Shown piece after piece: positions 2,159 through 58,800 of a stretch of DNA of 64,000 bases (positions within the stretch are counted from its first letter, which is position 1; each line of letters starts with the position of its first letter). This stretch comes from Bolinopsis microptera (taxonomy: Eukaryota; Ctenophora; Tentaculata; Lobata; Bolinopsidae): contig NC_087075.1 in NCBI RefSeq assembly GCF_026151205.1, positions 10,648,303 to 10,712,302 of the forward strand, written 5' to 3'. Position numbers and translations under genes: made by a program. The notes beneath the pieces are model-generated. The model had not been told where the DNA came from, did not search any database, and saw only the letters and a list, made by a program, of their open reading frames with translations.

Positions 2159-2479
2159 TTAACGGGTGATACTCGTAAAATATTTGTTCCATATATTAGG
2201 ACCGTCGACGAGTCCAACTCGGCGCGCGTCCTAGTAGGTTATAAACCTACAAATATATAATATACTACATACTAGGCACTAGGGATATGTGCGCTTGTGG
2301 CTACTGGCTTGGTAAATCATAAATTTTCGATACATAGCTTGATACATACATATATAGCTTTATTATTGCAGTCTTACTTTATAAGATAACCTATGTTTGT
2401 AGGTTTACAACCTACCGCAAGACGCGCGCCGAGTTGGACTAATATATGGAACAGATATTATACGAGTATCACCCGTTAA
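2159..2479. mobile_element. TTAA-flanked MITE with ~90-bp TIRs
   Basis: A 313-bp element (2163-2475) is bounded on both sides by TTAA. Both ends start CGGGTGATACTCGTA and remain near-identical through the TTCCATATATTAG motif and a GTCCAACTCGGCGCGCGTC block, then ACCTACAAA. The inside is non-coding. TTAA target duplication is the hallmark of piggyBac and Kolobok type elements, so this is most likely a non-autonomous member of such a family. Partial copies lie at 3377-3475 and 40588-40760. Confidence 0.75.
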
Positions 2480-3376
2480 CTTGTTGTTCATTGTTAATGA
2501 ACTGGCCGACGGCCGTGACCTGGTGAGCGCTTTTTCGTAGCATTTCATGCCTCGGGACATAAGTACTTCGAAGAATGAAGAAATTTAGACAAGTAACATT
2601 AGTCATTGCAATTAATTGAAATTGTTAATCTTTCCGCGCTGCTCGGCGTGGTCCATATAATAATATTATAATTCGAAAGATTCTTTTTTACGACCGCCCA
2701 CGTGCAAATCAGACGAAAAATATGAACTTGCGTAGTAACCATGGTAACGAAGGTTATTACACGTGCACGTGCAATGATTTGTGATTGTTTTAACGTCATT
2801 TTGATCGGTTTTGTTGATCATATTACGCTGTGTTTATATTAGTAGAAACAATATTTAAATTGGCTGTATCTTCGGTTTTGTAGGATATTATTTGACGCGA
2901 TTTAAACTTACTAACAAAAAACACTATTAGCTTCCTCCCTGTGACCACGGGTTTTCTAGTAGTAATATAATACAGTGCATGGCGCATCTGATTGCCTATC
3001 TAACGAAGATCTTAGATCCCAGTAGTGCTAAGTGCAATGCACTAAAAATAGCGCTAACAAATCCGTCAATGTTACTTTGTGCTTTGAAGCTTTTGTAAAT
3101 TGTAAGGATTTGCTCAGTGCATGTAATGGGATAATATTTCGTTATAAGAAATTGATCAGATCCGTCAACAACTTATATCATGCATATTGCATAAGCTGTG
3201 GGAACGTTTTTCAATTTGAATTAACGTTAGATATAAATGCCATGCATATGATTGTGAATTGAACTAAATCTTAACTTACCTCAGGCTATCATGTTCATTA
3301 TGCATTATGATTAACATAATAGAGATTCGAATAGAGATTCGGCGGAATGACAGGCTGAGCGCGGCCCAGTATAATC
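2480..3376. other. Intergenic DNA, nothing recognised
   Basis: There is no splice-consistent coding sequence. The small open frames of 66 and 76 codons here have low-complexity, family-less translations. The right edge (3325-3365) holds a copy of the GGCGGAATGACAGGCTGAG repeat also seen at 930-985 and 46530-46560. Confidence 0.45.
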
Positions 3377-3475
3377 TTAACGGGTGATACTCGTAAAATA
3401 TTCGTTCCAAATATCAGGACCGTCGACGAGTCCAACTCGGCGCGCGTCCTGGTAGGTTATAAACCTACAAACTAA
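3377..3475 (+). mobile_element. Solo end of the TTAA-type MITE
   Basis: TTAA is followed by the same CGGGTGATACTCGTAAAATA terminus as the full element at 2159-2479, through the GTCGACGAGTCC and AACCTACAAA parts. No matching second end is found nearby, so this is a truncated copy. Confidence 0.65.
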
Positions 3476-4218
3476 ATCAGTCGATTTAAAGTTATTATAA
3501 TTAACTATTAACTGTCATGCAACGTTAATATAATCGATATTTATTTCTATTGATTCACGTCTCACGATTAACAAAAATGGGGACTTTAGCTTTATCAGAA
3601 ACTGACAAAAAACAATGATCATTAGATCGAAATACGATCAGCTGACGTACTTTATATTGATAATAAACTATTTTAAAAGTATACATATTGTTCTGAGATT
3701 TTAATATAGTAAATACAAATGATAAATTTCAAGATCAATGGCTTTTAAACTTAAAGCACATGCATGATTGAACAAACAAAAAATAACTCCACACTGTACT
3801 ATATTGACATTGTGTAATGTGTATCAGCACTCCAATCGAAGTGATATTATGATATTGATTTTACATCCCAATTTCATCAGAAAGTCTTCCTATTCAATGT
3901 CTCGATCTGAAAGTTCTTTGAAAATCTCAGAAAGTCTTTGAATGGCTCATAAACTCTTGTTATTAGATTTTGTTAAGTCTAACAAGGACGGGTTGCTTTC
4001 GTTTCGAGTGTGGGCTGGGATTGTACGCACAAACGAACTCCCTGAAATTGGAAGGTCATTATTCATCAAGCAGTTATTATTAATTATTATATTTATACGG
4101 CAAAAGATGCACATCATTTTAGGGGTACCACTTTCGTAGATTATTTAATATTTACCTTTTGAAATCTTACTCAGTACTCATATCTGACATAGTGCTAAAT
4201 TCAAAATTTAATTTGATA

Positions 4219-5597
4219 CTAGGTAACTAACTTAAACAAAGAAAGCGGAATATCTGGGGCGGACGAGGGTTCAATGTATTGATCCCGAGATATCACGACT
4301 TGTTGATCCTGACCGTCATGATCTAATTCCCATGCCTTATAGTTGCACCTGTGAAAGTGAGCGTCAAAAATACCTAACATTGTTTGTATTAATTTTCGAC
4401 TTAAGCTTATTCTTAACTGGTTTGACTATCTGAGAAATAATCGATGAGCTTACAGTTATAATTATAGCTAGTACTAGTAGTAGGATAAGTAAGGTTATCT
4501 TTACCTGTCGGAAGTTTTTCTAGGTGTCTCAAGTTCTCCTCCAGCAGTAAAACACAATCTGGGAAATCTTGACTCTTGTTGAGACGATGGTTGAGATTGC
4601 GTTACTCTTGGCGGATTGATCCCTGATGAGTGTAATTCAAAAGTGGATGATCACGTCAAAACACGGTTAATGCTAATACTCATATAATATTACATGTAAA
4701 TCGACATGCACAGTGCCAGCATCATCAATATTTTGACGACCCTCATCTCCTTTGATTTTGATTTATCGGCGTGCGGTTTGAATAAGCGGGGAATGTTTCG
4801 TAACTTGTCACTTGCAAGATCAAAGATGAATCAATGATTTAATATTACTCTATATGCGGCGGTTGGAAAATTGTTTGTAAGACGCTTTGAATGACCACAT
4901 TTAAAACCATTGTTATGCTGATTTTACATTTTCCAGTCGGAATGTCTCATTGCGGTCCGTCAAATTCCATGTTTTTCACAATTTATTCAGATTTAAATAT
5001 CTAAACTTAAAGTGAGGAAAAAAAATGATAAGCACACAAGTGACAAACGAATTAATTTTAAGCAGCTAATTTTTACATAATGAAATCGCAAATCAAACTG
5101 TTTATACTTGAAATCTTAAAAAGTTTGCAGTAACTAGTGGTTTAGAAAGAAAGATCTAGAAAAAAAGATCAACTGTACCTGTTTTGGAACGTTGTATTTT
5201 ATCCTCTGGAATTGTTGGTAGTTCAATAACTGTTGCCTGGTCCCATTTATATTTGTGAATTTTAAATCTGGTGTCCTGTATTAAAAAGAATCAACAAAAA
5301 GAAAATAGTTAACATGTTTTGTTGCGAAGAAAGTTCTAGCAAAAGGACCACATCAATATTTATAGAAAACTTCGAAAGAAAACAAAAGAAAGAAACAAGG
5401 GTTCACAACCAACAACTTTCGCGTACGTTAAACTTGCGTTTTTCCTTTTCCCGGTTCCCTTCTTTTCTCCAGGGATTCGTCCGAGACCGGTTGCTTCTAA
5501 CAACAAGTCTTAATTGCTCTTTAAAGAACAGAAGTTCTAGGTTCCTCTCCATCTTCTCAGTCGGATCCTCCGTCGGAGGAACACATGAAGACGTCAT
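4219..5597 (-). CDS. Unrecognised four-exon gene
   Basis: I do not recognise the product. Three exons are well supported by GT-AG borders and matching phases: 5275-5179 (ends phase 1), 4622-4505 (ends phase 2) and 4348-4219, ending in TAG. They encode hydrophilic sequence (DTRFKIHKYKW..., GINPPRVTQSQ..., RCNYKAWELDH...). A first exon 5597-5427 is proposed: ATG opening MTSSCVPPTEDP, a basic stretch, and a phase-0 donor GTACGC that joins in frame; this exon is less certain. The joined product would be 171 residues with no signal peptide and no clear domain. A separate frame at 5952-5749 encodes a hydrophobic leucine-rich segment (RIVLLLLLVSGLSYSFLWLL) that could be an upstream transmembrane exon, but stops and a frame change separate it. 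The gene lies on the same strand as NPC1, downstream of it. Confidence 0.6.
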
Positions 5598-7499
5598 AAT
5601 AACGTTTCCCAGAAGTCTCGATTTTGTTAAAATACAGTGTACAGAAGGTGTTACAATTTTCAAAAGTCTTGAACTCGTTGGTTTGAAATACAGAATATCT
5701 TTTAGTTCTTTCCACCGTATATCTTTATCTATTTACACAAATACAAGCTTAAGAAGACCTACGCCCGAAATAATTTTCCGATATAATCGATTTCAGATCC
5801 GTCACCAATCTCAACAACCACAAAAAGCTATAACTCAAACCGGAAACCAACAGCAATAAAAGGACAATGCGACTTATCCAGCTCCACACGTGACACGACA
5901 AATTATCAATAAGTCGTTTCTTAACCGTTATACTGTTGTACAAACCGTGCAACAGTCCGAATCATTTAAACTAACAACAATCGGAATAACAAAGCACGCT
6001 AAGTGCCAATCACATAGTGAGGGAGACGACACCACTAAGGCTGCTTGTTGGGAAAGAAGTGCATGTAAAAATTATTACATAACGTTAAAAGTAATGTGTT
6101 AGAGTTAGACAACGAGTTGCGGCGGGAGTTAATTAACGGAATAACATTTTGAGGATTTATCACTATCAGTTACAGATGTGAATATCTTTAACATCTATAA
6201 CTATAGATGTTAGAGATATACAAAAAACGCACGAAAAAAAAACCTAATGGTACGGTTATCTTACAGTTATATGTTATTAAATAACACTGTATGTCATGCA
6301 GTGTATATAAAAGCAGTGGTCTGTTTGGTTTTCAGCTTTACAACATGTAATCGTGTTAATGTTATCGGCAGCCTGTTATCTATTTGGATTATACATAGAA
6401 AGAGATAATACGGTTTAGAATCGATGACCTCAATCCGAAAAAATTACTTTTTACAGGACGGCACGAAACAGCACAGCACAAAAGGATCCCTGGACACGAC
6501 TCACTCACTCAGCACAATTTTGGGTTCGACACAAAAACTTAAACTAAAAGACATGGCATGGCACGACGAAATCCTTAGACGCCATCAATTTCATCACGCC
6601 AATCGCGGACATTGAATAAACCGTAACGTTGTATAGTTCACCTTGACACACGCTGCAACCCCTTATCATACTCTGCATACCCCGCGCCACCTCTCAGGCG
6701 CGCCACCTCTCAGCCACCACTCGTAGGTACGTGGGAACTCGAGTAGTAAGACTAAGAAGAGTTTAAAATGTTCTAGAATCTTTCTTGCTGAATGAATTAA
6801 CTCTATTTATTGGAGACTATTTTCACTACTAGTACTAACTAAAACCGTCTTTCAAAAGCTCAATATGCTTGTCGTAGCGGTAAAACGATGACTATGGTCA
6901 CAAATTTCAATTTTTTGACGTAAACGTCCTGTATGTAGTAGAAATAAAACCATTTTATCTTGTATAAAATTAAAACCTATCGCAATTTTTTATTACTTCT
7001 TAAAAAATGGGTTTATATTTTAAACTAAAATTTAAATTCAACCAAATCGGTTACGTGTTTGTATAACTGTAAAAATTAGCAAACTCAAGAAAACCGTTAT
7101 AATGATAATAATATCCTTGCCTAAATCTTGTTGGAAATCTAAATGAGAATAAAACATACATAAAACGTAATAATTTCATTTGATCAGCATGATTTGAACA
7201 AGATTTTATTTGTCTTATCAAATCTGCACCAAATAATACCGTTCCACATTAACCACAGCTTAATGTAATAGTCTTCACATACAATAACATTGGCTACCTT
7301 GATTCTTAATTGTAAAATATCTTTACAGTTTAATCTAGATAAAAATCATGAAATGATAACCTCTACAAGGGCGACCTAACAGATAAAAAAACATTATTAC
7401 ATACTAATGAAACGGAAATTCCTAAGCTAAATCCGGTTTCAAAATTGACCAACCCTTCTTTGTTTACAGGTCAACTTGTTCATGCCAAAACCACACAAC
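5598..7499. other. Intergenic DNA between the unrecognised gene and NPC1
   Basis: This stretch should contain the promoter of the minus-strand gene below 5.6 kb and the NPC1 3' flank. A TATATAAAAG motif at 6304-6313 reads on the plus strand, but no plus-strand gene follows it convincingly; the 63-codon frame at 6424-6615 has no family resemblance. The rest is AT-rich and featureless. Confidence 0.4.
6304..6313 (+). promoter_or_regulatory. TATA-like box, plus strand
   Basis: TATATAAAAG matches the metazoan TATA consensus. No identifiable gene lies directly downstream, so its use is uncertain. Confidence 0.25.
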
Positions 7500-16500: not shown

Positions 16501-19500
16501 ACAGTATCCGAACAGTCAAACACATCCTGATGAAGAATTCAGTGTTAGAAATATAAGTTAAGTTAACAATGTTAGAAATATTGGAAATTTTAAAAGTAAA
16601 GAAAAAAAGTGAAAGGTGAAAAAGCGAGATTCCAAAATTGGATGCAAAGAATCTCACTTTTTTTCACATGGACTACCCCTTCCTACACTTAATGATCTTT
16701 ATTCAACCCAACACACGTTGGTGTATTATTAGCAACTTAAGTTCTAACCTCATCAGTTTTAGGCTTCACGTACTCTACAGAGGAAGTATCCTGGACGATG
16801 AACTCTACTTTTAGGTCTGTGTAAGCGTTATCTCCTAGCTTCACGTAGAATGTCTTCTGGTCACAGTCAGCACTTCCACACACGTACACGATCCCTGGAT
16901 GAGGGTTTAGTTAAAATGTCTACTTGAGATAAAACGCAATCACTTTTAAGATAAGAAGTTCCACTTTCAAACACAGGTTTTAGACGGGATGTTTTAATTT
17001 CGATATTGAGTTTAAATTTTCAACTTTAATCTTTTAATTGAACAGTAAAATTCACATAGGGAAGTAAAAATTATCACCCATCGAGCACAGTTTCCTGAAG
17101 ACCCAAATTTCTCGGTTACCTACCAATTCCGCCGGAGATGGAATCCCGCACGTTCTTGCAAGCGTCGTAAATACGCCGCGCAGCATCTTTAGTGATGAAG
17201 TATCTGATACCGGACACTGTGGTCCTCGAATCAGTGGCATTCAAAGTCGAATTAGTTATCTGAAATAGGGAGAACCATCAATTGCAAAGCTCAAGAATGT
17301 CTGATAGTGATACAAAATATTGCACGAATAAGATAGATAGATAAATATTTCTAACAGAACCAATCATACCAGAAATTTCTAATCACACATGAAGACTATT
17401 ATCAGCATACTTAAAATACCTGAATGAACTGGGCGTGGTTGGGATCACAAAAGAAAGCACATTCTATTGCCTGGAAGTCCCAGTAGCATGCATCACAACC
17501 GCCTATGATGTTCTTCACTACGTCCAACCTGAAATATTAGAGAATGTTAATTTTGTACATATAATACATGTAATAGGTAGGTCTCATCTAAAATTAACTG
17601 TTTTTGAACAAGTTTGATCGTTAAAAAGGTTTGTATCTTACTGTTTGATAAAGTCTTGGAGCTGATCTTTATCACAGCAAACATTCTCTTTATCTGCGTA
17701 CTGGAAAATGTAAATTATACTACAGAGAGAACGGAAAAAGCATATGAAATAACCCCAGCCTCACCAAGATCACCAAGATTACCAAGATCACCAAGATCAC
17801 CAAGATCACCAAGATCACCAAAATCACCAAGATCACCAAGATTACCAAGATCACCAAGATCACCAAGATCACCAAGATCACCAAGATCACTGATCAAACG
17901 TTTTGATAGTCTTTATATTTATGTATATTGTATAAGTAACTTATGTTTAGTTTTATATTTAATAGGCAAGTTATATCGATATTTCGACTAACCATAGGAC
18001 AAGCAGTCTTCAAGAGTTGTAGGTGTTCATCGTCAGGTACTATTGGATCCACTGTATTATGAGCACAGGGTAAACTTGATCCACAGGAATTCTGAGGTGG
18101 GGAATGTGTTAGAAATGAGAATATAACAAGGATATAACAAGAATATAACAAGAATATAACATATAATACCTTCCGGGAATTATATCCACTAAAAGTCTCG
18201 GACACTGAGAGCTGATAATTTGCCGATATATCCCGCAAGGGAAGCATATAATAAACTAGAAACCCGCTAGTTGAAAGCTTTGTTCGAAGAAATTTAAAAA
18301 ATCAGTTATGTTTTAATTTCTATTCATCATCTAGCTCTGTTATACTGTAGAAATTTTGGATTCTTTCGTCAAGTTTTAGATATAAATAGATATATTCTCG
18401 ATTGTATTGCCTGAATAAATAGTATCTGGAGAGAATATTTGTAGGATACAATACTTGAGTAGGAACAGTGTGCCTCGTGACGTGTAAAGCTGTAGGTGCT
18501 TTGCACGACAATAGCTGGATAACGCAACATTGTTCACACTTCACACACGTTTCGTGTACCTTCTTAGCTTATCAATTACAGTGAATGGGATATTGAGTAG
18601 GGATAAGGGAATGTTATGACATGATTGGATCTTGTGATATAAAGTAACAGTAGCTCATCGCATGTAATCCTCAACAAGCTAGTATATTTTTACTACAAGC
18701 TTACAGGAAAAATGTTTCATCCTTTTATTTTGTTCTCGATAGACTCGGCCTGGGTCAGCTGCCTTATAAAGCGAAACAAATCTATTCATTGCTATAGCTC
18801 AATTTAGAACATGTTCACTTCTTAATTTCTAGCTTCTATGTACAGAGTTGTCATATGAACTCTACCCCAGATCTAGCCCATATTTTCTAGGTCAATTATA
18901 TTCAATCCATGGATCACATCACTAATTATACGCCACAAGCTTCAAGCTTATTCACGCTGTTATCAATCTACCTTTTTGTTCGTATTGATTCGTGATCAAA
19001 GGGACCTGGGACAGTTACAATATTCCGTATTATTACAACCTGTTCCTGACCATATATTTATCTTGTACGATTTTAAAGCTTTTTTTTAGTATGAGTGTTG
19101 TGCCTTATAATATGGTAAACACTAGTTTTCTGCCTACCTAGCTCATAGGCTTCCTCAAACCTGTAAATCCACTAGCTGAAAGCTTTATTCAAGGAAATTT
19201 AAAATCAGTTATGTTATAGTTTCTTTTCATCATGAATCATCTATCTATCTACTTATCTATGATCTAGCAGCTAGCTCCGTAATATAAATTATATGGATTT
19301 TTATTTGCTGTTAACGATAAAGGTTTTATTTAATTCCCTAATCGATACTTTTCACCGCATCAAAAAACATCAATCACAACCACAGTTATGGATAAATTGT
19401 AAATTGTAATGTGAGCTGGTTATGACTACGTATCATAGAGCATGGCAACGCGCGTTGCTAATCTGTTCTTGCTCGCGCACGTGCAATCTCTTGATGTTGC

Positions 19501-49836: not shown

Positions 49837-52800
49837 TCATATATCGCATATATAATACTCACGTGACAGTCGGGAATTGTAACGAGGAAGATTAAATATT
49901 CTACATAGTTGCGCTGTACTGATTCTCTCGTGCGGGTCTGTGTGCCACATTTTATTCGTTATCACTATTAACTGAAATTGTAGTGTTGCAACTTTGCAAT
50001 TTGGAACGTTATTTGGAACGTTATTTGGAACATAATTTAGAACGAAACATGAAATTCTTCGTTTCTTCTCAGATGGCAAGGTTTGGATTTAGGTGGAAAG
50101 AATAAAAAAGCTCATTCAAAGATACGTCGTCATCTGCCAGTACTAAAGGGAAATATAACAAGAATTTATAACAAAAATATTATAATTAAAAGAAGAGCTT
50201 ACCGATTTGATGATAGGAGAAATGGTGGTCCAGTGTGCTGCGATGGGCGGTCTGAATTTAATGTTATTCCTGTACATGTTGCGCATGTAGTCTCTAACAA
50301 CCTGGAGATAGTGAATGTTGAAACTGAAGCACAATTATATCAATATAGTAGAACATGACGTCATTATAATGCTCGGTGACGTCATCATAGCACCACGTGA
50401 TGTCATCATAATACCACGTGACGTCATCACAACACCACGTGACTTTACTCACACTTGACGAGGTGGAGGTGGAGCTAATATCAGGGAATCTATTCAACAG
50501 GTATGCCCCGTACGCCGTATGGTTCTGTATCTGACACCGGGGTATGGTGGTGGTGGTGTAGTCTGAGGGGTGCGGGCGAGAACTGGGGCTCATCTTGGAG
50601 GTCTGAAGGAGAGGTGAGTGTTAGTAGTTAGATAGAAGATCTTCAAATGAAGACGTAGCAAAACATGAATATATATAATCAAACAAGTCCCGTCACCAAA
50701 TAACACGCAAGTTAAAAAATTAGCGTCATCACCATATCACAACGTGACGTCATAACTACACCACGTGACGTCACCACTTCAACACGTGACGTCATCACAA
50801 CACCACCACTCACCTCGTGTCGATTGTGAGGCTCATTGTGCTTGCAGCACACATAAGACAGCAGCTCCCAACTAACAAGGGACATACTGTACACGTCTGC
50901 TTTGTAGAGGTTTATCCTCTCTACTCCGGTGGAGAGCAACACTTCTGGGGCGGTGTATTGGGAGGTGCCTCCGCTACCGTCCCTGGGGGAGAAGGGTGTT
51001 AAGGTATCAATAACAAAATAATAATATTGAAATAATATTCATAAATTATAAATACTATTTCACTAAAGATGAGAGGGGTGGATTACATATTTGTGCAAGC
51101 GATTATCACATTACGATTCCCTTTGGGGAGCCGGACTCTATAGTTCATAAATGGTGGGAGGGCTGGATCGAGTTATAAGCTAACCAACCTGACATAACAG
51201 TCCTGTCTGTGTTTCTCTTGACTATGCCCAAAGTCAGACACCACCAATTTAAAAGGGCAGGAGTTTCCCGTCTTGGTACCGGGCCTGCTACCCACTAGAA
51301 TGTTCGCTGTTTTTAGGTCTCTGTGGAATACCTCCAGGTCGTGGAGATAGGACATTCCGCTGATAATGTCCTGAGCAGTGGAATGTTATGGTGGAATGTT
51401 ATGGTTTAGCAGCGGGAAGTCAAAAAACTAGTGAATCAGAAAGATGATTTATTCATTTGCAGTAGATGAACAGGCGTTTTAAAGTCATAACCGCCATTTT
51501 TATTATGAAAACAGGCGAACCGTGTCATGTTAGAAAGAGTGTTAATTTCAGCAAATAAAAAGAAGAAACAAATAAAGAGAAGAAACAGCGGTTGTTTTTT
51601 AATTTCTAACTCACCCTCATAAAGGATTGAGCCCAGCTATCCCTCATCAAGTAATGACCGCGGGATATTAAGAAGTCCTTCAGAGACCCATAGGCGTAGT
51701 ACTCGGTACAAAAATAGCTGGAAAATAAAAATAATTATTTTCCAAGATACATTTGTAATCGTGATGTATATTTTAATTTGCACCACATTATGAAGTTAAA
51801 TAACTTTATACCGCAGAATGACGTCACCACAACACCACGTGACGTCACCACAACACCACGTGACGTCACCACAACTCACTTGTTTCTGACGGACATGACA
51901 CTCTGGAGGTGTGGTGACATTCCTCTGACGTGGGGTCTGTTTCCCATACTCCTCCAGAGGTACTCACACACGTTGTCATGTGATAGCACTGAGATAACGT
52001 TCAGTTCGTCCTCCATGTGTTTTCTTTTCTTGTCTGTGTAGCATTTTATTACACCTGAAGAGGAAAAGAGATTGGAGAGAGTATGTTTTAGAGCAACAAA
52101 CAATTACTTAATATTTATCTCCAATTATAGTTTACAATTAAATTTCATTAATTTTTATTGATTGGACGCCTTGTTTTTAAATCATAGTTGACCAAATAAT
52201 TTAGGCGTAAAACAATACATATCTAAACTATGATACTTTTAATAAAATAAAATGACTTTACAAAAATACAACATGAAATAAACAACTTCGGGGCTACTTT
52301 ATCTAAAGACTAGCTAAAAACACTTTATCTATATCTTTAAAAAGATGAATAGATCACTCACCAAAATAAAAGAAAATATAACTACAAAAGTACAACACGA
52401 AACTACTTAATCTAAATTTCACTCAAAGTTGAAACTCTTCCGCCAACCCCAACCAATGTTCACAACAGAAAGTGGGTGAAAAGTCATTAACTGGTACCCC
52501 CTTCTTGAACTCCTCACTGGTAAACCACTCCTGTAGCTGAGGTAAATCCTGGAAGTGCTGTAGAAGTCTACCAATATTAGTTGCTTTGGCTACATGCTCC
52601 GGAGCAAACTTATCTATTTGACTTACAAACTCAAACACCATAAAGTCGACATAGGTCAACTTTTCACCCAACACAAACGGATCACCTTCTCCAACAAACT
52701 TGTCCAGAACCCCCAGCTTCTTCTCCAAGTTCTCCAAATATTCCGGATCCATTTCCTTAAACTTCTCCACCTCAAAACATATATCCGTGAAAGCTGCTCG

Positions 52801-55800
52801 GAGATCTGTTACTTCCTGTTCAATCATCTCACACTTCACTATTGTATATCTCCTTCATTATCTCCTGGCACCAGTCCAAACTTCCTGCCCAAATACCTGA
52901 TGATAGCCACGCTCTGAGTTATCTTTATATCACCGTCTATCAGATAAGGAAGATTTGGCAGATCCAATCCTAGATTGTATTTCTCTGCCTTCCACCGAGT
53001 GAACCCTGTTTTATCCAGAGGATCTTGGTCATCTTTCCAGCTCACACCGGAGTATCTGAGTATAAGGCGGGATATCTCACCCATAGCACGCACATTCCAG
53101 TAGCAGAGTGTTATTGACATTCCTTCTACAATCATGTGAAATAATCAGGTTAGAATATAGGCTGACTTTTTGCCGCATTGCAATTTGCAGCACGAATAAA
53201 AAGTATAAAAATGAAGATAAATTGTTGCAAACCTTTCTTTTTGTTTCCAATACCGTCCACCCAGTGAACTAGAGCGATAACTTCATCTTCAGAGGACTTC
53301 CACCGGGACGAGAGAACTCCCTGAAAATGGGAACTTTTAGATCTCTGATTTTTAATCTCTCGAGATATGTTATTAAAGTGAGTGTGCAAGTTAAAGTATA
53401 CAATTAGTTAGGGCAAGAGTTGATTTTTCTGTGAACAAATTCGTAACAAAGGTTTGTATACAGGAATGTGTTGTCCATAGTCCCAGGAACCACAAAAAAA
53501 AACTTTTGGGCAAACATTTTTATAGTCATTTTTCTCCAGGAACCCATACGCCCCACCCCTAATATTGGTTATTCGACTCCCGAAGCACTTGAGATCTCCA
53601 AAGGGGATGCAAAATGACCGCAATGGCCACATTATGGCAGGCGAATGATAGTTTCAGAACGATTGGGGCTTTATTTTTCGAAATAAATGGAATTTTTCTA
53701 AATTTTTCTCAATTTTATTGAAATTTCGAAAAAAAATACACCAAATTATTCTTAACGCTTATTTCAAATCTATTTCAAAACTCATCTACAAATAACAAAT
53801 ACAGTTAATCTAAAATGTGTATTCTCAGTAAATACCATGACAATTATTAATACACAGTTAATATTAATCAAAATTCGCTTGTTCTTCAGGTTCATCATGT
53901 CTAATGTTTGTGCAGTTCATACCATGGCATCGTACACAAATATTGAAGCCATATTTCCTACATGAACATCTGAAAGTCAAACAGGCCTGTTCCACATCGA
54001 CAGAACAGTTACAACATATAAGGTTCAAAATAGACTCTGGAGCATTTATAGCTTTTGTTGCAACTGGTTCGTAAGTGCCACCAGGAGCCAATTTCCAGCC
54101 GTAGTCAAGAGGATTCAGACTGTCAGCGTTGAGCATGACCCAGTTATGGTACTGTAAGTAAGCTCTAAGGATGTGCTCCGTTGCTGAAGCTATTGTTGGA
54201 GGTAGCCTATTCGGATTGAGACTCTTTTTCGCTACCATCCTATTGTATGCTAGGAATCTCAAAGCAGAAAGAGTCTTTTTCTTGTCACCATAAATGTACT
54301 GCAAGAAACAGAGGCCTGCCTCAATAATCTTTTCTTTTGATTCTAACACCGAAAGTAATGTTGCCAACTGACCTTGCTCATCAAAGGTGAGAGCTTTCTT
54401 TAGCACTTTAATTTTTAACCTTACTAAAACCAAACAGTCCACTGACGCTATCACAACCTGAAATACTATGAATTAGAAGAAGTATCTCCTTTTCTTTATG
54501 ATCTAGATGACTTGATATTTCTTTGATTGAATATGTACCCTTCTTCGTTGTTAGATAAATATCATTGTGATGGTCACTGTTGAAATGATGTACTAATAGA
54601 CAAACTATATCGGTATCCTCTGCCTTCAATTCAACATCGCCAAGGAATGACATTTCCAATGTTTTCTTTGCAATTAAAGTATCAGCATCGTTACAAGCTC
54701 TGATCACTTCAATACCATTTACAGTAAAAATGCTTGAGATAAGGTCGATCAGTTCTTTTTTGTTATTGTTGTTGCTCAGAAATGTTGTTTTGGTGACAGT
54801 ACAAAAGGTGGATTTCTTTACAGCAATATTAGCACAGAACGCTTTTACTCTCCTCTTGTGCTCGTGATCTTTAGTAGAAGGCTCATATCCATCAAAAATC
54901 ACAATAACTTCCCGATTTTTTGGGATAAGCTTCAGCCAACCTCCATCAATGACTAGTGGGATCGTGAAGCTGCAAGATTTAAGTGTAGATTGGTTTATGT
55001 TTTTGAGGTAGCTACCAAGAGCAGCCTTATTAGATTTCCTCATCATCTGATATTGATCAAATAAGCTCATCGGCACCACAGTTAACTCGTATGTTAGGCA
55101 TTCCTCTATTGAAGTTTCTCTATCAGCAACCAAGACTAGACGGTTAAAACACTTCAACGGATCGACTGCAACGCTTTTATTATTCACTTTAACCTGCTTT
55201 CTTAGTTGTGTCAAGTTCTTTGCTTTACCTTTGATACTTATCTTATCGATGAATGTCAACCCATCTAGCTCACGTTGAAGGACAGCCCCAACGGCCAAAC
55301 ATTCCTCGGGATTCACCTCATCGTTCCCAGACTGTGATATAAGACCAGTCGAAAAAGATATTAACTTAGTCTTATCTTCGGATTCTGTAAAGTCGACAAT
55401 AACTTTAAACCAAGTTAATAATTTTCCAAATACATCACAGTTTTTCTTGATTGATGACTTGGTAAGATCTGAGTGGATGGCAGCTTTAGTTGGTACTAAA
55501 GCTAATTCAGTACCAACTAGTTGGTAGTTGGTACTGAATTAGCTAATGAATCTCCAAAAGACTGATTTATTAAAGCCATCTGATTCAGGGTGGCCACCTA
55601 TAACTTGTGAGCGGACTCACGATTACGCATCCTTCCACTTGTTAATCTACCACTAGATTTACCTGCCCTCATAAGGCTCTGCTCTATGGAGAGGTCAGTC
55701 CACACCCCGGCCCACTCGTGGTCGTTGTAAAGTTGTAACAAACCGTGTGAAGCCCAGTTACTTTAAAGGTCTTTAAAAGCACCCCATACTTGACTTCAAA

Positions 55801-58800
55801 AATAGCATCCTGCTCCAAATACAGTCTTAAAGCTTTTGCATACTGTCCCCTACCAGCTGCTGCGAAGTAGGGCAGCATCAAAGCTACTGCTGATAAGTGC
55901 ATATTGTAGTCGTGCAACCTCTCTGCTCTTATGAAGTCCTTTACTAGTGTTATCATGTTGTGGTAAGTAACCCATAGAGCTGATGTTCTACTGTTGGAAA
56001 ACAGGTTCTTTAGAAGCAGAGTTATTTTCTCTGATAAATCCTGAATAGATTTAGTCTTAAAGTTAACACCTAGATTTTCGTTCACACATTTGTCGATGTA
56101 ATCTTCCAAGTCTACTAGTTCATCGTCGTAAACTTCTTCCTCTATAATGAAACAACAAAGAGCGGCGTCGATTTAATGTACCCCATACAGTTTTTTTTCT
56201 ACTTTATTCATATTATTTATCATTCTTATCTATACTACGTTTATGTCTCTTTTTATCACCAGCCCTATTTTTCTTATCTGAATTTTCTCTTTTCGTAAAC
56301 AGTTTTCTCTCATCACAATTTGTTCTTTAAATCTGCTGTTGTTTGTTAGTTAACCTTGATATTTGTTAATTGAAGTTATTTCCCGAGTAAGATTTGAAAT
56401 AAGCGTTAAAAATAATTTGGTGTATTTTTTTTCGAAATTTCAATAAAATTGAGAAAAATTGAGAAAAATTCCATTTATTTCGAAAAATAAAGCCCCAATC
56501 GTTCTGAAACTATCATTCGCCTGCCATAATGTGGCCATTGCGGTCATTTTGCACCCCCTATAGAGATCTCAAGACCTTCGGGAGCCGAATAACCAATATT
56601 AGGGGTGGGGCGTATGGGTTCCTGGAGAAAAATGACTATAAAAATTTTTGCCCAAAAGTTTCAGCTGGACAGTTTTTTTTGGTGGTTCCTGGGACTATGG
56701 ACAACACATTCCTGTAGACAAACCTTTGTTACGAATTTGTTCACAGATTGACCCATAAACAGCAATTCTTGCCCTAACTAAATAAGAAAAGTATTTTTTG
56801 TGGGGGCTGACTATATTAAAGTATATTAAAATGTAGGTATTTTTGCCGATTTGACCCCGGGAATATACTTGAACACACTTTAATATAAAGGTTATATCCC
56901 CAATTTTGTTTGCAGGTAAAGCTGTAAGGGGAGGGAGAGAGAAGCAGCTAGAAGTATCGTGATCAAATTAGACCTTGTATATATTTCAGATAGAGTTGCT
57001 GCAGGCCACTGTGCTTTATGGTACGGCACCAGTTTGTCGGGCACGTGATAACCGAGTGACGAAGTCACGAGGAACAGTCACTTGATAGATAACGTGACCT
57101 ATGTTAGCCAGCGAGAAGGGCTGGATTTCATGCTCAAGCAAAATTAGATTCACAATTCACATCATTATAGTTTGAGAGAACAGCAAGGGTTTTACCTGGG
57201 AAGTGGGGACCCCAGGCTATAATGTTCATATAATGTCCAAGTTCTATAACTTACCTTAAAGTTTTATAGGCCATATTTCCGAGTGTCTTCGTGGTTTAAA
57301 TATTTGTGGACGTGTAGTAAGATAAAGCCCCAAGTCATGTAATCAAATTAAGAAATAGACTGAACAATTCGATTCGTTAACTGCTGCCCCCTTTTAATTC
57401 GATTTTCTTTATAATTTTATAACGCTTTTGAAAATTCAGGGTTTTTTATAAATTCAGCTTATAATGGTAATCTTTCTTCGCTCTTATACTTGTTATAAGT
57501 GTGTCGATGGTTTAATAGTTCGTCGACAACTATCAAACTAAATTCTGTTTATAATACTAAATAATCATGGATGGGTTGCAGAATAATTAGGTTTTGATAC
57601 AATTATTAACTTATATAATCATTGACAAATAAAGTTTTTTGATACAACCACAGTGATATCACTGAAGAAAATATAAACATCATACATAATATTACATTGT
57701 CAACTCGAACATAAAAATGCGCAATATGTATAAAATATACACTGTTCAACTAGTTCTTGGCACGGTTAATGCACGGTTAATGCATGGTGAAGGCACGGTT
57801 AAGGCACAAGGGTTACATAAGGCAAGGTTGAGGCACGGTCACTTAATGCACGGTTAACGCACAAACTGCCCATAAGCAACCATTATGGTTGCTTAAGGCA
57901 CGGTTAACGCACGGTTAACGCACGGTTAACTAAGGCACATGATCTGAATGTGACGATCCAGACTCTTCAAATTAAGTTAACATCTCCTGAGCAAGAATCC
58001 CGAGATTCATGCTTACTAATTATGTACTCACTAGACGGAAATTTTCTTCTTCTTGTTACTATAGTTCATCTACCACAGTCCTGAATACACATTATCTTAT
58101 CTCATGGAATGAGATATTCATGGAATGTGTGGCTGTAAGTGTCATTGTCAATTGTTACTATAGTTCATCTACCACAGTCCTGAATACACATTATCTTATC
58201 TCATGGAATGAGATATTCATGGAATGTGTGGCTGTAAGTGTCATTGTCAATTGTTACTATAGTTCATCTACCACAGTCCTGAATACACATACCTTAGTTC
58301 CCAAAAATTTGTGTGCCATTATATTGAGCACAATTTATTTGAGCCCGAAAAATTTGGGCAGAAAATTTGAACTCATTTGGGCGACCGAAAATTTGGGCAC
58401 AAATTCTTCGAAAAATGAACGATTTTCCACTAAAATTTCAGTTAGATATTTGCCTTAGTTCATTATTACTCCTTATAGTTATTATTCCAGTCATTTGCTA
58501 GCTATTCCAGTTATTTCTATTCATTTAAAATATAAGCCTTTTTACTTGGTCAAGCCATGAATGACAGATTAGAAAACCAAAATTTCAAATATTATTTCAC
58601 TTGGATATGAAGAAAAAGCCATCTTTCTATAGATTTCAGGGCCACAGGCCAAATGCCAAAAGTTTGGTTAGCAAAAAATTTGGCAGACGGAAAAGATTTA
58701 TGCAATTAATTTGGTCTGCAAAAAATTTGGGCGAGAGGCCCGCTCAAATTTTTTGTCGCCCAAATTTTTGGGAATTAAGGTATCTTATATCATGGAATGA

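Follow-up and report, generated by a model that had tools for sequence, protein, structure and literature searches.

The Academ superfamily of DNA transposons and its AcademX lineage reportedly go back to Kapitonov and Jurka (2010) and Kojima (2020). AcademX elements encode a nuclease of the XPG type, for which the X stands, and DUF6589 forms the core of fungal Academ proteins. A Cys8 zinc finger is a further feature of Academ transposases. The target-site duplication is TA in Tc1/mariner elements and TTAA in Kolobok elements. A passage of PMC10045372, in which the word is "nuclease" only, gives duplications of 3 or 4 bp for AcademX and of 9 or 10 bp for AcademH, and ties this difference to the encoded helicase and nuclease. 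ISL2EU elements, of the PHIS superfamily, combine a transposase with a YqaJ nuclease and duplicate AT, and Harbinger duplicates TWA, according to an excerpt of PMC4482050; an excerpt of PMC9587614 assigns nucleases of the PD-D/ExK, His-Me finger and DEDDh kinds to KolobokE, KolobokP and KolobokD. XPG is unmentioned in the passages available from PMC4455052, PMC5753468, PMC12730594, PMC10799480 and PMC9783078. Here we describe a 3,376-bp mobile element of the ctenophore Bolinopsis microptera, located at positions 53405-56780 of a 64,000-nucleotide stretch of contig NC_087075.1, hereafter the window. It is a decayed, shortened, non-autonomous and frame-broken copy of a cut-and-paste DNA transposon. 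We hold with good confidence that this internally deleted copy is an AcademX-type transposon, whose complete relatives encode one large protein uniting a DDE-like (Asp-Asp-Glu) part with a FEN/XPG nuclease.

The window element and its family

The features of the element, together with an empty target site found elsewhere in the window, are as follows.

53405..56780, minus strand (gene strand): the entire element of 3,376 bp, with an internal deletion; its ends, taken from the sequence itself, are TAGTTAGGGC...GCCCTAACTA
53402..53404, no strand: target-site duplication AAT, left copy, read from the sequence
56781..56783, no strand: target-site duplication AAT, right copy, read from the sequence
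53405..53801, plus strand: terminal inverted repeat, 3' side of the gene
56360..56780, minus strand: terminal inverted repeat, 5' side of the gene
56173..56359, minus strand: 5' remnant with no family reading frame
55684..56172, minus strand: open piece 1, 162 aa, beginning at family residue 83, with the FIRAER motif at 55903-55935
54408..55538, minus strand: open piece 2, 376 aa, FEN/XPG-like nuclease
53864..54472, minus strand: open piece 3, 202 aa, with the last part of the nuclease region and the Cys-rich tail (53906-54013)
55500..55544, no strand: one of the lesions of the gene, a 20-nt duplication that forms a perfect palindrome
18256..18450, plus strand: empty target site within a dispersed repeat, aligning with the joined flanks of the L014 element with one 3-bp duplication removed

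A first-pass annotation had proposed these limits, the long inverted ends and a single gene whose product has a FIRAER motif, acidic motifs like those of FEN/PIN proteins and a tail rich in Cys; the sequence bore out all three, the coordinates exactly. The arms of the inverted repeat are complementary over 302 nt (93%), 94 nt (89%) and 28 nt (86%), and the left and right arms agree at 96.1% of 361 aligned bases. Related copies end in the same way as the window element. The minus-strand gene is broken into the three open pieces listed above, the second of which carries the motifs IDGG (within 54933-54959), FDGY (within 54849-54899), DAD (within 54675-54698), DTD (within 54600-54623) and GCD (within 54420-54461). 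No Pfam family passed its cut-off in the window protein pieces, the Cys-rich tail included, and the search of the window against Rfam at gathering scores yielded no match.

Searching the genome (264.65 Mb, 232 contigs) with the terminal repeat gave at least 41 matches (the best 40 of 297 candidates scored). Twenty loci, which with the window account for 28 of the 41 matches, were extracted; one further match, L029, covers the flank on the wrong side and displays a single repeat, and the short loci L032-L035 stayed outside the study set. A repeat pair was present in 19 of the 20 loci, L024 holding a lone unpaired repeat. The loci provided 20 elements in addition to the window's own, the second element of L011 being cut at one end. 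Remnants of the same gene were found in all 21 elements, spanning 180 to 861 of the 861 query residues, while a full-length open frame was found in none (the longest has 706 residues). A frameshift after the peptide AEDTDIV is common to 11 elements, two of them in L011; four are unshifted, and the place is unreadable in six. Since 11 of the 15 readable copies have the same frameshift, these copies probably spread by means of protein supplied in trans by other copies. L013, L017, L027 and L028 lack a large part of the central gene region.

A 3-bp direct repeat flanks 17 of the 18 window-family copies with both ends intact, the exception being L019 with 4 bp; L023 and L027, each with a damaged end, and the cut L011 element were left out of this count. 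With the six distant elements described below, the 3-bp duplication occurs in 23 of 24 elements, against a mean of 2.3 and a maximum of 10 in 20,000 shufflings of the flanks. The duplicated triplets vary and include CAA, GTA, CTG, CAG, AAG and GTT. TA, which the first-pass annotation had taken for the duplication, was rejected on flank alignment, as it forms the outermost pair of the inverted repeat itself. Empty sites in relatives were suggested there as a check, and one empty site turned up in the window: once the element and one ATT are removed, the L014 flanks align straight through 18256-18450 at 182 of 198 positions. The joined L011 flanks had no match in a short form and a rough, gapped match of 78% in a longer one, which was not used. 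The dispersed repeat that supplied the empty site (window 18246-19233) is 71-92% identical to the element flanks in L011 and L014.

Several observations concern individual copies. Six weaker matches, considered as a second independent family, were rejected as such, since L031 belongs to the window family as an older, decayed member about 85% identical. Decayed window-family copies on contigs C5, C6, C10, C12 and C13 (L031 for example) gave the same match scores at several places far apart, which suggests duplication of a larger unit with the dead element inside it. In L027, a long TCC-type minisatellite replaces the gene middle (2398-4245), and Pro/Ser-rich frames resembling those of this minisatellite occur in L030 (about 4240-5770) and L013. 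The extracted L010 element includes a 2-kb stretch absent from the other elements (2763-4738 in gene orientation), with an open frame that resembles, by eye, the end of a reverse-transcribing element. The palindromic duplication at 55500-55544 and a part of the gene that stands in inverted orientation close to one L009 end are perhaps template-switch lesions. Two glutathione S-transferase exons, with the N- and C-terminal Pfam domains, adjoin the element at window positions 52423-53144 on the minus strand.

Full-length relatives and their protein

With the L015 frame as query, the genome gave at least 81 matches (the best 63 of 374 candidates scored). One group among them, 52-69% identical, has a single open frame of 1,342 residues. 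The locus of that frame (L036/37) is an element of 7,694 bp whose repeats agree at 98.4% over 370 bases, with ends TAGTTAGGG/CCCTAACTA and a GTT duplication. The region between the first two putative catalytic aspartates of L036 (D1-D2) was searched in turn, which led to 85 matches, relatives 31-34% identical among them, and five loci were taken. The copies on contigs C12 (L038/42), C5 (L040/43), C6 (L044) and C2 (L045) form one family, 7,552-7,761 bp long and 99.35-99.66% identical, with repeats of about 275 bases at 94% (three measured) and the duplications TTT, CTG, TTA and AAA, respectively. Their frame of 1,438 residues is uninterrupted in the C12 and C5 copies and broken in those of C6 and C2. 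In a third lineage, L039/41, the repeats span about 595 bases (94.6%), the ends are TAGTACAGAC and the duplication is TAC.

All six elements picked by their protein and taken with both flanks (L036/37, L038/42, L040/43, L044, L045 and L039/41, four of which belong to one family) are thus bounded by inverted repeats and 3-bp duplications. Their ends begin TAGT..., one C5 end being altered. The protein is conserved even between lineages 22-34% identical, and the full-length copies of the three lineages have no other frame longer than 300 residues; their small other open frames (minisatellite, antisense) fell outside the Pfam scans. The view of the first-pass annotation that this protein is the constant gene of the element was borne out by the remnants in every window-family element extracted and by the repeats at every protein-picked locus taken with both flanks. 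Its description of the ends also held, that of the duplication did not, and an intact protein of 1,438 residues was encountered in the distant relatives alone, in two of four copies.

The order of conserved motifs is the same across lineages: DNxD, T[FL]Dx[PQ]L[WY]xKA, GxxH, SGLE, the nuclease motifs (IDG, FDxY, AD, DTD, GCD) and the Cys-rich tail. In three lineages, 157-169 residues separate D1 from D2 and 45-48 residues separate D2 from the glutamate (E), the latter spacing being usual for DDE transposases. In the L038 frame as translated, the three candidate residues are D365, D527 and E574. Zinc-finger-like Cys/His motifs are visible by eye at the N-terminus of the full-length relatives. 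From its sequence, the complete protein is thus predicted to consist of a zinc-finger-like N-terminus, a core with the DDE-like pattern DNxD ... T[FL]D ... SGLE, a FEN/XPG nuclease and a CXC-like tail. A profile of four nuclease regions matched exonuclease 1 in five of the six PDB sequences listed (best E = 6.5e-06), the acidic motifs being aligned; the sixth was another protein (0.046). Single sequences gave nothing over the Pfam cut-off or below E 0.03 against PDB, apart from the Cys-rich tail of L038, which passes the Pfam TCR/CXC model (24.6 bits for a cut-off of 23.5). Comparison of the L015 and L036 frames over 705 codons (61.3% identical residues) revealed a nonsynonymous divergence of 0.27-0.28 and a synonymous divergence of 1.64 by one method, saturated by the other, so the protein is under purifying selection in this pair.

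The first-pass annotation had noted the absence of any DDE frame, which is correct for the window copy and fails for the element type, since the full-length relatives carry the putative triad in the same polypeptide. The similarity of the window copy to the 861-residue family query begins at residue 83, the D2 and E candidates fall before that residue of the query, and the D1 candidate lies further upstream; the window copy has no DDE frame because the portion ahead of residue 83 was deleted. In L030, a longer copy on contig C9, the 5' repeat is accompanied by a zinc-finger-like exon that matches one upstream of the L036 frame at 45% of 60 residues, with no second repeat within the 7.5 kb examined; the 5' stretch of the window copy is otherwise seen there, 56228-56400, which takes in the inner edge of the repeat, being shared at 94%. 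A piece of L009 matches the frame P0001 through D2 inclusive (68% over 91 residues). The window family would accordingly comprise differently deleted derivatives of one longer element.

A minisatellite lies just ahead of the 1,438-residue frame, at 1311-2105 of L038 and in the same part of L040, L044 and L045. Both of its strands can be read as open frames, in IKSVHLRDIVPVC and MNRLYHAHRDNITQ units, and its length differs among near-identical copies. Pattern scans of viral contigs with six peptides each revealed no relatives, and tblastn gave no phage match at E 0.01.

Classification against known systems

The element is probably to be filed under AcademX, because its 3-bp duplication, its FEN/XPG-type nuclease and its inverted repeats match that lineage; the comparison is one of descriptions, drawn from one printed passage and from general background. 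Both are nuclease-bearing DNA transposons, and the 4 bp of L019 is the single departure from 3 bp here. The XPG-type nuclease itself was recognized through exonuclease 1, with FDG, AD, DxD and GCD aligned. Exonuclease 1 and FEN1 are, to our knowledge, host repair enzymes and not found in transposons. If the label is right, AcademH belongs to the same superfamily and differs by its helicase and its duplications of 9 or 10 bp, as far as the printed passage goes; no helicase family appeared in the Pfam scans of the long frames P0001, L038 and L039.

The other systems resemble the element in part. ISL2EU, as excerpted, is likewise a DNA transposon with a transposase and a nuclease, and differs by its AT duplication and separate YqaJ exonuclease, as opposed to varied 3-bp duplications and a FEN/XPG-type nuclease here. 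The Kolobok nuclease lineages, in the part of their description available, also add a nuclease to a DDE transposase, of other kinds. For PIF/Harbinger, the excerpt gives TWA, to which the triplets found here are not confined, and for Tc1/mariner the expected TA lies inside the repeat, with 3-bp duplications and an empty site in its place.

Some results weigh against the assignment. DUF6589 had no match to these proteins, and its two hits elsewhere in the genome stayed below cut-off. No Pfam transposase was recognized in the window, family or full-length frames, the profile of the DDE-like region matched no solved structure in PDB, and the DDE-like alignment rests on three rows. The Cys-rich tails of P0001, L039 and the window are below the Pfam TCR/CXC cut-off, and the 4 bp of L019 and the unclean L011 empty site also count here.

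There is some room for a superfamily distinct from Academ, whose transposase would be the large unannotated animal family of FIRAER/CXC-like proteins. In such a single DDE-FEN fusion, the DDE core and the FEN flap nuclease would share the cutting, the nuclease cleaving the second strand, and the likeness of both the 3-bp duplication and the nuclease to those of AcademX would be coincidental. No Pfam model, DUF6589 included, recognizes the transposase part, which agrees with this proposal. We nevertheless consider it rather improbable, for the passage of PMC10045372 already puts AcademX in print with 3-4-bp duplications and a nuclease lineage set against a helicase lineage, which is the same combination. 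The undescribed transposon type envisaged by the first-pass annotation is thus unlikely, and the elements are probably new families of a known kind.

That the protein is a constant cargo, moved by an unrelated transposase acting in trans (of Tc1/mariner, Harbinger or ISL2EU, for instance), seems very unlikely. The 11 readable window-family copies with the common frameshift probably moved without making the protein, and no known transposase was recognized in the elements, as this explanation would have it. The varied 3-bp duplications are unlike TA (Tc1/mariner), AT (ISL2EU) or TWA only (Harbinger), as these are described in the sources at hand; the full-length copies of three lineages offer no other frame above 300 residues, and purifying selection acts on the protein in the pair tested. 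Least probable of all is that the FEN-like nuclease is itself the catalytic transposase and acts without DDE chemistry: its motifs are invariant in four lineages and it is the sole domain significantly matching a known enzyme, but an equally conserved D-D-E pattern of typical spacing lies upstream, and we know of no FEN-family enzyme that joins strands.

Mobilization and significance

As the constant gene across lineages and the only frame above 300 residues in the full-length elements, the protein very probably mobilizes the element, one of the two roles that the first-pass annotation had suggested. On the AcademX-type reading, the protein would bind the inverted repeats, and its DDE core would cut the ends and transfer them into a target staggered by 3 bp, gap repair then leaving the 3-bp duplication. 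The nuclease would probably act on the second strand, or on flaps, while the element is excised or joined. Window-type copies, which retain the repeats, would be moved in trans by intact ones. The DDE catalysis, the role of the nuclease and the mobilization in trans are all deduced from sequence comparison.

Proteins of the FIRAER/CXC-like type presumably fill animal gene catalogues as "uncharacterised", and searches of titles and abstract openings brought no publication on them to our notice. The present analysis assigns to mobile elements a protein type in which Pfam names no domain except the Cys-rich tail. Under the AcademX label, should it hold, there is nothing unusual about the window copy. 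Should the superfamily instead prove distinct from Academ, the near-identical copies of this genome would represent the first active examples of it. The full-length copies, 99.4-99.7% identical and with two intact frames, are candidates for testing what the DDE-like core and the FEN-type nuclease each contribute to a 3-bp duplication.

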